Shown here piece after piece: positions 2,982 through 61,510 of a stretch of 64,000 bases of DNA. The notes below the pieces were generated by a model. The model saw only the letters and a list, made by a program, of their open reading frames with translations. It did no database searches and was not told the DNA's origin. The DNA is from Halorubrum xinjiangense (GTDB lineage Archaea; Halobacteriota; Halobacteria; Halobacteriales; Haloferacaceae), in contig NZ_FNBO01000005.1 in the NCBI RefSeq assembly GCF_900102375.1, positions 62,001 to 126,000 of the forward strand, written 5' to 3'. Each line of letters opens with the position of its first letter. Position 1 is the first letter of the stretch. The translations under genes and the position numbers were made by a program.

Positions 2982-3380
2982 GGTGGCGCCGCCGGCGGCT
3001 CCGCCGCCGGCTGCAAGAGGCGCGTCGCGCCTCCCTGCGTGCCGACGAGCGCCCGAAGGGCACGAGTCGCACGCGCGAGGGAGTCGGCCGACCGTCGGGA
3101 GGCCGACGAGGCTGGGGAGGTGTGAGGTGCGGTTGCTGTGCGGGGTGGGACTCAAAGGGGCAGCCGGGAGGCGGGCGCAGGCGTTCACGAGAGCGGAGCT
3201 CTCGTGAGCCAATCAGAACGCTTCGCGTTCTGATGACGACGTAAGCACTGGAAGGAGCGAACGAAGTGAGCGACTGAAGCGCGTGGTCCGAGAGAGCAAA
3301 GCTCTCTCGTCATCCCGAAAATCTTTGATTTTCGGGCGACAGCGAGCGTGCGCCCGCCTCCCGGCTGGGGCTTTGGAGGT
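2982..3380 (+). ncRNA. Structured RNA-like element, copy A (longest)
   Basis: One of five related elements in the window. It opens GGTGGCGCC. A 5' hairpin follows (GCGTGC near 3037 pairing with GCACGC near 3067), then a second hairpin (GTCGGCC/GGCCGAC). The core is GAGGCTGGGGAGGTG to GGGACTCAAAGGGG at 3107-3160. A third long helix pairs CAGCCGGGAGGCGGGCGCA (3161-3179) with its exact complement (3347-3365). Its distal part is enlarged in this copy by four perfect short hairpins (3185-3207, 3212-3234, 3289-3309, 3314-3336). It lies between MBF1 (divergent) and the PurD-like gene (convergent). No convincing protein is encoded. Structure is inferred from pairing that persists across copies; transcription is not shown. 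Confidence 0.6.
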
Positions 3381-3470
3381 AGTCGTCACCGATCCGCAGT
3401 CAACGATTTATAAGCGAGCGGCTAGGGCCTTGGCAGTGTTCACCGCAGATTCTCCGATCCCGTATAAAAA
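3366..3470 (+). repeat. 57-bp tail repeats of element A
   Basis: After the last helix, GGGGCTTTGG (3368-3377) recurs as GGGCCTTGG 57 bp later. The sequence ATTTATAAGCGAGC lies between them, and a more diverged unit follows with a TATA-like sequence near 3463. Copies B to E show the same 57-bp period. Only about two units are recognisable here. Confidence 0.55.
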
Positions 3471-15075: not shown

Positions 15076-15235
15076 CCGCTTATAAATGGTCGCTGGCGAA
15101 TTGACGGCGAACACCGCCAAAGCCCCAGCCGCTCACTTATAAATAATTGGCCGGAAATCGACGGATGACATCGCCAAAGCCCCAGCTGCTCACTTATAAA
15201 TGTCCGACAGTCGATCGGCAGAGACCACCTCCAAA
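15066..15235 (-). repeat. 57-bp tail repeats of element B
   Basis: Three units with CTTATAAAT at 15079, 15136 and 15193, exactly 57 bp apart. Each has a conserved block of roughly 30 bp (TTTATAAGTGAGC to GGGGCTTTGG on the minus strand) and a more variable block of about 25 bp. The last unit abuts the stop codon of the thiolase-fold gene. Confidence 0.7.
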
Positions 15236-15474
15236 GCCCCAGCCGCGAGGCGGGCGCACGCTTGCTGCGCTTCTCGTCGCTCGTTTCACTCGCTCCTGCG
15301 GTGCTTACGTCGCCTGCGCCCGCCTCGCGGCTGCCCCTTTGAGTCCCACCCCGCACGGCACCGCACCTCACACCTCCCCAGCCTCGCCGCTCGCTCCCTC
15401 CGGTCGCTCGCGGCGTCCCTCGCGCGTGCTGACTCGCGGCCGCCGGTGGCGGCCGCTCGCAGGCACGCGCCACC
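15229..15474 (-). ncRNA. Structured RNA-like element, copy B
   Basis: On the minus strand it starts GGTGGCGCGTGCC. It folds a 5' hairpin (GCGCGTGC/GCACGCGC with an inner GCGGCCGCC/GGCGGCCGC stem) and a second hairpin (CGCCGC/GCGGCG), then the conserved core ending GGGACTCAAAGGGG. The third helix pairs CAGCCGCGAGGCGGGCGCA with its complement. This stem differs from copies A, D and E at positions that change on both sides. A TATA box sits at 15493-15501, about 27 bp before the predicted 5' end. It lies 56 bp after the stop of the same-strand MaoC gene. Confidence 0.65.
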
Positions 15475-29104: not shown

Positions 29105-29216
29105 CATTCGTTTATAAATCCGTACTGACGGATCGACGGCGGACTCCTCCAAAGCCCCAGCCGCTCGTTTAGAAATGCCTGATCGCGGATCGACGGAGAC
29201 CACCTCCAAAGCCCCC
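29105..29216 (-). repeat. 57-bp tail repeats of element C
   Basis: Two units: CGTTTATAAAT at 29109 and a decayed CGTTTAGAAAT at 29166, exactly 57 bp apart. The conserved TCCAAAGCCCCAGCCG lies between them on the plus strand. The second TATA-like box has a mutation, in keeping with the generally eroded state of copy C. Confidence 0.6.
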
Positions 29217-29447
29217 GCCTCCCGGCTACCCCTTTGAGTCCCGCCCCGCACCGCACGGCACCACCGGAAGACGGTCGCCTCGCTTCGCTCGGCGCTGCGT
29301 CTTCCGTACTCCCGCTCGCTTCCTCCGGTCGCTCGCGGGACCGCAGCCTCAAACCTCCCCAGCCTCGCGGTTCGCGCTCTTCGAGCGCTCACCGCTCCCT
29401 CGCGCGTGCTCCTCGCGCCCGACGGGCGCTCGGAGGCGCGCGCCACC
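29200..29447 (-). ncRNA. Structured RNA-like element, copy C (third helix lost)
   Basis: On the minus strand it begins GGTGGCGCGCGCC just three bases after the TGA of the M50 protease gene. The 5' hairpin and second hairpin (GCGGT/ACCGC) are kept. The core is partly altered and expanded, but GGGACTCAAAGGGG remains. The long third helix of the other copies is collapsed to one arm (AGCCGGGAGGCGGG), as if recombination between its two arms removed the loop. Likely a degenerate copy. Confidence 0.5.
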
Positions 29448-37539: not shown

Positions 37540-38990
37540 AAGGAGAATACCCGCGCCTTTAGGCGCGGGATGAATCCGACATTCCAGCCAACAACCCACA
37601 AACGACACTCTCAGCGGATATTCAACTTCCAGTCCCTAGTTTTAATTTCCATGCTCTCATAACTGGTTATGAATCACAGAACGATGCTGAAGACAACCCG
37701 CACCTACGTCGCACGCATTACGAACCACAGTCAGGTTCATGATGACTTGGACCAGTGTGGGTTCGCCGCATCGAAACTGTGGAACGTCGGACGCTACTAC
37801 ATCCAAGATCAGTGGGACAAAACCGGTGAGATACCCGACGAAGCCGAGTTGAAATCGGAGTTGAAAGACCACGAACGCTACAGTGACCTACATTCTCAGT
37901 CAAGTCAGCGAGTTCTCGAAGAGCTTGCTGAGGCGTTCACGGGCTGGTACAACTCCGACGACGGGAACAACCCACCCGGCTACCGGAAATGTGGCGACGA
38001 CCACCCCCGCTCCACTGTCACGTGGAAGAAACGGGCCATCAAACACGACGACAAACACGGCCAACTCCGCCTCTCGAAAGGGTGGAACCTGAAAGAGTCG
38101 CGGTCTGACTTTATCCTCGCAGAGTATGAAACCCGTCCTGATGTAGAAGTCGAAAACATCCAGCAGGTGCGGGCCGTCTGGAACGGCAACGAATGGGAAT
38201 TACACCTTGTCTGTAAGAAAGAGATTCCAGTCGAAAACGCACCGAGTGACAAGACGGCGGGAATCGATCTCGGCATCAGCAACTACCTCGCCATCGACTA
38301 TGAAGACGGGGCGAGTGAACTGTATCCGGGGAATGTGCTGAAAGAGGACAAGCACTACTTCACCCGCGAGGAGTACCAGACCGAAGGGGAAAGCGGACCG
38401 TCGAAGCGTGCGCGGAAAGCCCGGCAGAAACTCTCCCGACGCAAAGACCATTTCCTTCACACGCTCTCGAAACACATCGTTGAACGCTGTGTCGAAGAAG
38501 GAGTCGGGAAGATTGCGGTTGGCGACCTCAGCGACATCCGCGAGGATGAGAACGGCGATTCGCGGAACTGGGGTGCCTCGGGGAACAAGAAACTCCACGG
38601 TTGGGAGTTCAACCGATTCGCTCGTCTCCTTGAATACAAGGCCGAAGAACACGGTATCCTCGTTGACCGTGTAGATGAGAAGAACACGAGCAAGACGTGT
38701 TCGTGTTGCGGACAGATTCGTGACAGCAACCGAGTGGAGCGTGGTCTGTACGTCTGTTCGTCGTGCGAGACGACGATGAACGCAGACGTGAACGGAGCGG
38801 TGAATATCCGCAGAAGGATAACTCAAAATCCCCCGACGGGGGATATGAGTAACGGCTGGTTGGCACAGCCCGGAGTCTTCCTGTTCGACCGCGAGAGCGG
38901 ACGGTTCACACCGAGAGAACAGGGAGACTGTAAACCCTAATATCCCAACGCTCGGGATTCCTCCGCCTTCAGGCGGAGGAGGATGTCAAA
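37540..38990 (+). mobile_element. IS200/IS605-superfamily element, IS1341 type (TnpB only)
   Basis: The left end carries a hairpin CCCGCGCC-TTTA-GGCGCGGG at about 37550-37570. The right end has CCTCCGCC-TTCA-GGCGGAGG at about 38960-38980, followed by AGGATGTCAAAAAA. Subterminal hairpins like these are the recognition sites of TnpA in IS605 elements. TnpB spans most of the interior; no TnpA gene is present, so mobility would need one in trans. Exact ends cannot be fixed without an empty site. The right end is immediately next to tail repeats of RNA element D. Confidence 0.8.
37669..38940 (+). CDS. tnpB: TnpB (IS1341-type, RNA-guided nuclease family)
   Basis: A 423-residue TnpB. It has an N-terminal DNA/RNA-binding half, RuvC-I motif AGIDLGISNYLAID (D200), RuvC-II region KIAVGDLSDIRED, a zinc finger TCSCCGQ/VCSSCE (C344, C347, C363, C366), and RuvC-III NADVNGAVNI (D373). 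TnpB proteins are guided by an RNA from the transposon's right end and cut matching DNA. Gly285 stands where active enzymes such as ISDra2 TnpB have the catalytic Glu, so cleavage may be lost; this could be a trait of haloarchaeal homologues. The frame is intact. Confidence 0.9.
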   Translation: MNHRTMLKTTRTYVARITNHSQVHDDLDQCGFAASKLWNVGRYYIQDQWDKTGEIPDEAELKSELKDHERYSDLHSQSSQRVLEELAEAFTGWYNSDDGNNPPGYRKCGDDHPRSTVTWKKRAIKHDDKHGQLRLSKGWNLKESRSDFILAEYETRPDVEVENIQQVRAVWNGNEWELHLVCKKEIPVENAPSDKTAGIDLGISNYLAIDYEDGASELYPGNVLKEDKHYFTREEYQTEGESGPSKRARKARQKLSRRKDHFLHTLSKHIVERCVEEGVGKIAVGDLSDIREDENGDSRNWGASGNKKLHGWEFNRFARLLEYKAEEHGILVDRVDEKNTSKTCSCCGQIRDSNRVERGLYVCSSCETTMNADVNGAVNIRRRITQNPPTGDMSNGWLAQPGVFLFDRESGRFTPREQGDCKP

Positions 38991-39014: not shown

Positions 39015-39200
39015 GGATCTTTCCAAAGCCCCAGCCGCTCACTTATATATTGTTGCTCGCTGACCGGCGGAGAACGCCTCCAAAGCCCCAGCCGCTCACT
39101 TATATATTGTTGCTCGCGGACCGCCGGAGAACACCTCCAAAGCCCCAGCCGCTCACTTATAAATTGTTGCTCGCGGACCGGCGGAGAACGCCTCCAAAGC
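39015..39200 (-). repeat. 57-bp tail repeats of element D
   Basis: Three units with CACTTATA at 39040, 39097 and 39154, exactly 57 bp apart. The variable blocks are almost identical here (TTGCTCGCGGACCGGCGGAG and close variants), indicating recent duplication within the locus. The leftmost unit stops about 15-20 bp from the IS right end. Confidence 0.8.
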
Positions 39201-39448
39201 CCCAGTCGCGACGGCTCGCGCGCCTTGCTGCGCGCCTCGCTCGTTCGCTTCGCTCACTCGCTGCGGTGCTTACTACGGCGTGCTTCGCCCTCGCGACTGC
39301 CCCTTTGAGTCCCGCCCCGCACAGCACCGCCCCGCACCTCACGCCTCCCCAGCCTCGTCGGTGGTCCTCCGCGTCGCTCCGGACCACCGACTCCCTCGCA
39401 CGCGCTCCTCGCGGCCGCCGATGGCGGCCGCTCGGAGGCGCGCGCCAG
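39190..39448 (-). ncRNA. Structured RNA-like element, copy D
   Basis: On the minus strand: 5' stem CTGGCGCGCGCC, with inner GCGGCCGCC/GGCGGCCGC; second hairpin GTCGGTGGTCC/GGACCACCGAC; core with GGGACTCAAAGGGG; third helix CAGTCGCGA pairing with TCGCGACTG. The third stem replaces C-G by T-A pairs on both sides relative to copy B. The distal part is shorter, without the GGCGGGCGCA arm seen in A, B and E. It lies 56 bp after the end of the interrupted small membrane gene on the same strand. Confidence 0.65.
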
Positions 39449-61098: not shown

Positions 61099-61108
61099 AA
61101 ACGGTGCG

Positions 61109-61357
61109 GTGGCGCGTGCCGACGAGCGCCCGGAGGGCGCGAGTCGCACGCGCGAGGGAGTCAGTCGGCCGGAGCGAAGCGGAGGCCGACTGACGAGGCT
61201 GGGGAGGTGGGAGGTGCGGTTGCGGTGCGGGGCGGGACTCAAAGGGGCGGCCGTGAGGCGGGCGCAGGCGACGTAAGCACCACAGCGAAGGAGCGATAGC
61301 GACTGAGCGAGGAGCGCAGCGAGCGTGCGCCCGCCTCACGGCCGGGGATTTGGAGGT
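61109..61357 (+). ncRNA. Structured RNA-like element, copy E (cleanest)
   Basis: It starts GGTGGCGCGTGCC. The 5' stem is GCGCGTGC/GCACGCGC around an inner GCGCCC/GGGCGC hairpin. The second hairpin is GTCAGTCGGCC/GGCCGACTGAC, followed by core GAGGCTGGGGAGGTG to GGGACTCAAAGGGG (61195-61246). The third helix pairs CGGCCGTGAGGCGGGCGCA with its complement at 61325-61343. It is 50 bp after the stop of the M29-like gene. The compact form and intact helices make this the best reference copy. Confidence 0.68.
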
Positions 61358-61510
61358 GGCTGCCACCAGTTTACTGACTTTCATTTATATCCGAACGGCC
61401 GGGGCCTTGGAGGTGGCTGCCACCAGTTTACTGACTTCCATTTATATCCGAACGGCCGGGGATTTGGGGACGGTCGCCCACAATTCGCCGGCAGCCATTT
61501 ATAAGAGGCC
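61345..61510 (+). repeat. 57-bp tail repeats of element E
   Basis: TTGGAGGTGGCTGCCACCAG occurs at 61350 and 61407 and in a diverged form at 61464: a strict 57-bp period. Two of the three units are almost identical across all 57 bp, including CATTTATATCCGAACGGCCG. Confidence 0.8.

Follow-up and report, generated by a model that had tools for sequence, protein, structure and literature searches.

Related Repeat Families

Bacterial REP/BIME elements, which are linked to RAYTs, are high-copy extragenic palindromes, at times arranged as inverted pairs, whose hairpins carry the tetranucleotide GTAG or CGTC at their foot (PMC3733652). Bacterial repeats of the BOX/ERIC type are likewise modular, structured and intergenic, and have no coding capacity. 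Transposase-free repeats are also described from haloarchaea, namely the PATEs and SMRs of Haloquadratum walsbyi (PMC3119063), of which PATEs have near-terminal palindromes and resemble IS605 ends. Halovirus HF2 contains class I intergenic repeats, 56–58 bp units with an AT-rich box (PMC8707807), and the haloarchaeal sot0042 (RF02656) is an omegaRNA-like RNA of IS200/IS605.

The family described here has five copies (A to E) in the window, by which we mean the whole 64,000-nucleotide stretch of Halorubrum xinjiangense DNA that was analyzed. Its high-copy, extragenic palindromes, some in inverted pairs, recall REP/BIME elements, but the element is 250–400 nt long, modular, and composed of three hairpins. 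Its hairpin foot is not GTAG/CGTC but reads NRAAG-GGG/GGG-CTTYN in nearly all copies read. The Y1 transposase domain PF01797 is absent from five genomes with 45–84 copies each (G001, G015, G019, G029, G046) and present in two with none (G026, G051). High-copy genomes without this transposase speak against a REP/RAYT model, although its loss after the element had spread is not excluded. Compared with BOX/ERIC repeats, the element is archaeal, spans an order, and has a foot helix that covaries and an apical loop that is conserved. No PATE-like similarity to IS605 was noticed, judged only by eye against the IS605 end beside copy D. The 57-bp satellites described below are comparable to the HF2 units, but the latter are viral, lack the hairpin element, and have a diagnostic CTTTAAGT motif that was not seen in the satellite unit. 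A sot0042 sequence with its transposon end does lie in the window (38816–38980, +), directly adjoining copy D, but it is a separate locus.

None of the five copies matched Rfam at the gathering score, the best sub-threshold result for copy E having only E = 0.43, and the original prediction that no known RNA fits therefore held. No description was found in Rfam or in the open-access literature searched, and neither RepRanger (PMC12306157) nor a study of small RNAs in halite (PMC7002113) mentions Halorubrum. We consider it likely that the family has not been described before.

Architecture of the Element

From 5′ to 3′, the element consists of hairpin 1, hairpin 2, a G-rich linker, the core, hairpin 3, and a 3′ GGGGCTTTGG, with symmetrical GA/GA internal loops in several stems. 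A foot helix forms between CAAAG in the core and CTTTG on the far side of hairpin 3, with a GGG/GGG internal loop in between; the core had been regarded as single-stranded, and this pairing was missed. GGG-N-GGG...RAAGGGG is present in 190 of 212 copies, and in all but about two the loop is kept as GGG/GGG, not GGG/CCC. As a separate matter, a G-quadruplex in the linker alone is not supported, being predicted in 13 of 112 cases vs. 438 of 560 shuffled ones, i.e., more rarely than in shuffles.

Copy E occupies about 61108–61357 (+), supported by the sequence, the covariance model, and an RNA fold with z = –7.3 relative to shuffles. Hairpin 1 (61112–61153; GCGCGTGC/GCACGCGC) contains a tandem GA/GA internal loop and is followed by hairpin 2 (61160–61194; GTCAGTCGGCC/GGCCGACTGAC) and by the unpaired G-rich linker, GAGGCTGGGGAGG...GGGGC (61195–61233). 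The 5′ foot strand, CAAAG, is part of the core GGGACTCAAAGGGG (61234–61247), and hairpin 3 (61248–61344), with its conserved apex GACGTAAGCAC...GAGCGCAGCGAG, is followed by GGG and the 3′ foot strand, ATTTG (61345–61353). Beyond this lie the satellites (61395–61467), 57-bp units that repeat the 3′ arm plus GGGG[CA][CT]TTGG.

All four other copies were located where predicted. Copy A (2982 to about 3376–3380, +; satellite 3418–3433) owes its greater length to additional REP-like hairpins within helices 1 and 3. Copies B (15229–15474; satellites 15117–15132 and 15174–15189), C (29200–29447; satellite 29149–29164) and D (39190–39448; satellites 39023, 39080, and 39137) are on the minus strand. 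The claim of a common 5′ sequence, GGTGGCGCG, failed, as A begins with GGTGGCGCC and D with CACTGGCGCG. That of a shared core held, with GGGACTCAAAGGGG exact in all five; that of three helices in the same order held only in part, since little of the third helix is left in copy C, which has an additional linker hairpin. Copies A, B, and E have the linker GAGGCTGGGGAGGTG, while that of D ends in GGCG and that of C in GGTT. Covariance model R1 gave 117.7 bits for E, 117.6 for D, 106.7 for B, a weak 37.6 for C, and two separate matches (48.5 and 20.3 bits) on A; overall, the family is far above chance in the window.

The tandem units, which had been overlooked although they follow every copy in the window, often lie 3′ of copies elsewhere. 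They have a period of exactly 57 bp, and in each the end of hairpin 3 recurs together with GGGGCTTTGG; those of this genome have TTTATAA at a fixed position. Satellites resemble the stem of their own copy above chance.

Hairpins vary among copies, additional ones are inserted, and modules are not co-inherited (55 copies of this genome). The core is conserved well above the median pairwise identity of whole copies, 75%: in a sample picked by the linker only (n = 31), it was exact in 19, off by one or a few bases in 9, and truncated in 3. Hrr. trapanicum G049 and G047 (L082, L087) have a hairpin 3 that is flipped in place at site E, and the foot in G049 then reads CAAAGGGG/CCCCTTTG.

Copy Number and Distribution

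Five copies proved far too small an estimate of the family. GGGACTCAAAGGGG with at most one mismatch has 151 matches in the 3.26-Mb genome (82 plus, 69 minus; none for the reversed control), and the linker GAGGYTGGGGAGGYGTGAGG with up to three mismatches has 172 (control, 4), so that about 150–170 copies are present. This amounts to roughly one copy per 20 kb on both strands and, by our estimate (about 170 copies of 250–400 nt), to about 1.5–2% of the genome. Within the genus, 50 of 53 genomes were positive for GGGACTYRAAGGGG, with 0–171 copies each; several Halorubrum genomes have zero or nearly zero. Beyond the genus, the same search of 118 genomes from the family returned only chance single matches.

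Relatives with a GAAAG/CTTTC foot occur in Halogranum and Haloparvum, and this variant was found in 177 of 392 Halobacteriales genomes; in the rest of the phylum it does not exceed chance. A covariance model built from the copies and run on haloarchaeal genomes likewise found the family across the order: the model of the 3′ domain (E ≤ 0.001) matched 102 of 146 genomes, representing 41 of 56 genera of Halobacteriales. At most 24 matches were counted per genome. The element is also found on plasmids of Halobaculum, Halorubrum, and Halorussus. Together these results establish a family of folded, non-coding elements, modular and dispersed, that spans the haloarchaeal order and is one of the commonest non-coding structures seen so far in haloarchaea.

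Outside Halorubrum, other tandem repeats often stand in place of the 5′ domain. At loci L254 and L312–L317 (G237), and at similar f17 loci, CGCTCGGTGACAC tandem units precede the core, and hairpin 3 of these same loci has a differing apical domain.

Covariation of the Paired Regions

The original prediction also held that stem changes compensate each other, and this was borne out. Across 212 copies, the foot helix is CAAAG/CTTTG in 105, GAAAG/CTTTC in 77, and CGAAG/CTTCG in 14, with no mixed pairs; for the 123 Halorubrum copies, CAAAG/CTTTG (102) and CGAAG/CTTCG (11) were likewise never mixed. GGAAG/CTTCC and AAAAG/CTTTT were each seen once, in single genomes. RNAalifold applied to 36 sequences from several families gave 27 consensus pairs, 22 of them with double changes. 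In this alignment, 97.1% of cells are paired vs. 74.3% when shuffled and 28–44% in slid controls, and none of 500 shuffles reached the observed value on any of five measures.

Because paralogues could mislead, we also used a single orthologous site, that of copy E in 19 species. There, 330 of 342 cells are Watson–Crick, compared with at most 302 when arms are swapped between species, and on the gene tree the pair state changed at least six times at P7, three times at foot pair 2, and twice at P2. Pairs at this site have thus changed repeatedly yet remained paired. Stem sequences turn over, but their pairing and the sequence of the apical loop are retained, and this is not mere palindrome correction, since the GGG/GGG loop persists unrepaired.

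Strand of the Fold

A fold that acts on one strand should allow G-U but not A-C. Apical pair states fit this expectation (C-G 37, T-G 32, T-A 13, C-A 0), as does the base of hairpin 3 (G-U 71 vs. A-C 19), although part of the T-G excess at one pair, P4, possibly comes from conversion with the satellites. Hairpin 2 has no wobble asymmetry (G-U 9, A-C 8), and the inversion of hairpin 3 in two species indicates that orientation can be dispensable. The wobble bias points, with good likelihood, to a folded single strand that is most probably RNA; single-stranded DNA is not excluded, and the reading rests on sequence alone. The claim of selection for RNA structure is accordingly upheld for the fold, while the identity of the molecule as RNA remains unproven.

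Genomic Context, Gain and Loss

Copies are intergenic. Relative to flanking genes in this genome and G001, 25 are convergent, 20 in the same orientation, 25 opposite, and 12 divergent, counts that rest on simple ORF predictions. A general role as a 3′-UTR element was rejected for lack of orientation bias. TATA-like boxes about 14–19 nt upstream of copies in this genome suggested that the element has its own promoter, which would start transcription within helix 1; as a general reading this was rejected, such boxes being present in none of 20 G001 copies. A replication-polar motif or lagging-strand insertion found no support, with no pattern along the G047 chromosome. Nor did a viral origin: there was no phage match, and four IMG/VR pattern matches arose by chance, without the hairpin.

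Short gaps of 30–75 bp at orthologous sites in other species (A absent in G047 and G049; B in G025; C in G047, G040, and G025) imply that copies come and go. Of the hallmarks of a MITE, inverted termini were not noticed, and flanks at empty sites are too diverged for a target duplication to be read. No pair among 55 copies of this genome exceeds 91% identity, i.e., no recent spread of whole copies is seen. A comparison of ortholog and paralog identity for copies A and D was not decisive.

One foot variant dominates each genome (CGAAG, 94 of 98 in G047; CAAAG, 118 of 127 in this genome). That it does so genome-wide, despite several orthologous sites, hints at conversion or at a coevolving reader that acts in trans, or at both.

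Back-to-back inverted copy pairs resembling BIMEs, with cores a few tens to a few hundred bases apart, were observed at L261, L265, L266, and L271 and in G408, G398, and G386.

Proposed Mechanism and Rival Explanations

One strand of the element folds into hairpins 1 and 2, the G-rich linker, and a long hairpin 3 standing on the foot helix NRAAG/CUUYN; the internal loop is GGG/GGG, and a further GGG tract lies upstream. From this point on we infer. The selected molecule would be RNA of the folded strand, and a trans-acting factor may read the foot helix, an inference made because almost all copies in one genome share a foot variant and differ together between lineages. New copies would arise by rare, now mostly quiet, non-autonomous copying, combined with hairpin exchange between copies. 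As to action, we can only guess that the element, as a folded and bound part of transcripts that run through the gaps between genes, might stabilize, end, or insulate them. On balance, we favor an order-wide structured element kept in place for its one-strand fold and probably read in trans, although transcription, function, and the mechanism of spread are unproven. Against this reading stand the absence of gene orientation, of a consistent promoter, and of wobble asymmetry in hairpin 2, as well as the hairpin 3 inversions and the near-empty Halorubrum genomes.

Under the favored reading, archaea would have an equivalent of the BIME/BOX elements of bacteria, and its cleanly covarying foot helix predicts a partner that acts in trans. 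Structure–function tests are straightforward because dozens of compensatory variants exist in nature, some of them at one orthologous site in 19 species. If the molecule is RNA, a large RNA family has gone unannotated in a genus that includes genetically tractable species, among them Hrr. lacusprofundi. A bolder version remains possible: a new multi-copy archaeal RNA class built around a three-tier G-quadruplex between two helices, with a dedicated protein that coevolved with the foot helix across the order. It draws on the GGG-Y-GGG, GGG, and GGG tracts and on the molar potassium of haloarchaea.

The closest rival, which we place clearly behind the favored reading, is a non-autonomous mobile DNA element (REP/BIME- or PATE-like) in which a recombinase recognizes folded single-stranded DNA, the fold is needed for movement, and gene conversion homogenizes copies. 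In its favor are the range from 0 to about 170 copies within one genus, the short gaps at the A, B, and C sites, the plasmid copies, the back-to-back pairs, and the genome-wide foot variants. Against it are the lack of near-identical copies and of co-inherited modules, the compensatory changes in place across 19 species, the mismatch between copy number and Y1 transposase in both directions, and the lack of orientation bias along the G047 chromosome; moreover, no ORF-bearing version was seen, and no target duplication was recognized.

An unlikely alternative is a double-stranded or cruciform chromosomal site (for nucleoid organization, supercoiling, or recombination) bound by a DNA protein, with RNA irrelevant. 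It would suit the intergenic, orientation-free dispersal over both strands, with roughly one copy every 20 kb, but G-U is favored over A-C on one strand only, G047 has no replichore pattern, and the conserved unpaired loop sequences are typical of a folded single strand. Very improbable are functionless palindromes held perfect by template-switch repair between arms, for although both P7 arms change together with few intermediates and hairpins flip in G049 and G047, the mismatched GGG/GGG and GA/GA loops are not repaired away, and conservation of the core and the apex extends over the whole order.

Observations at Individual Loci

Among the copies listed for G001:C1 between 1.9 and 2.95 Mb, about 19 are plus and 2 minus, a local skew not found in G047. 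Locus L115 (G006, site B) has no element and instead a transposase-like gene next to a TTTATAAAT box. At L009, L155, L244, L249, and L258, copies lie directly upstream of one same gene in different families, which by reading we take to be Tsr3/DUF367-like; these represent either independent insertion or a very old site.
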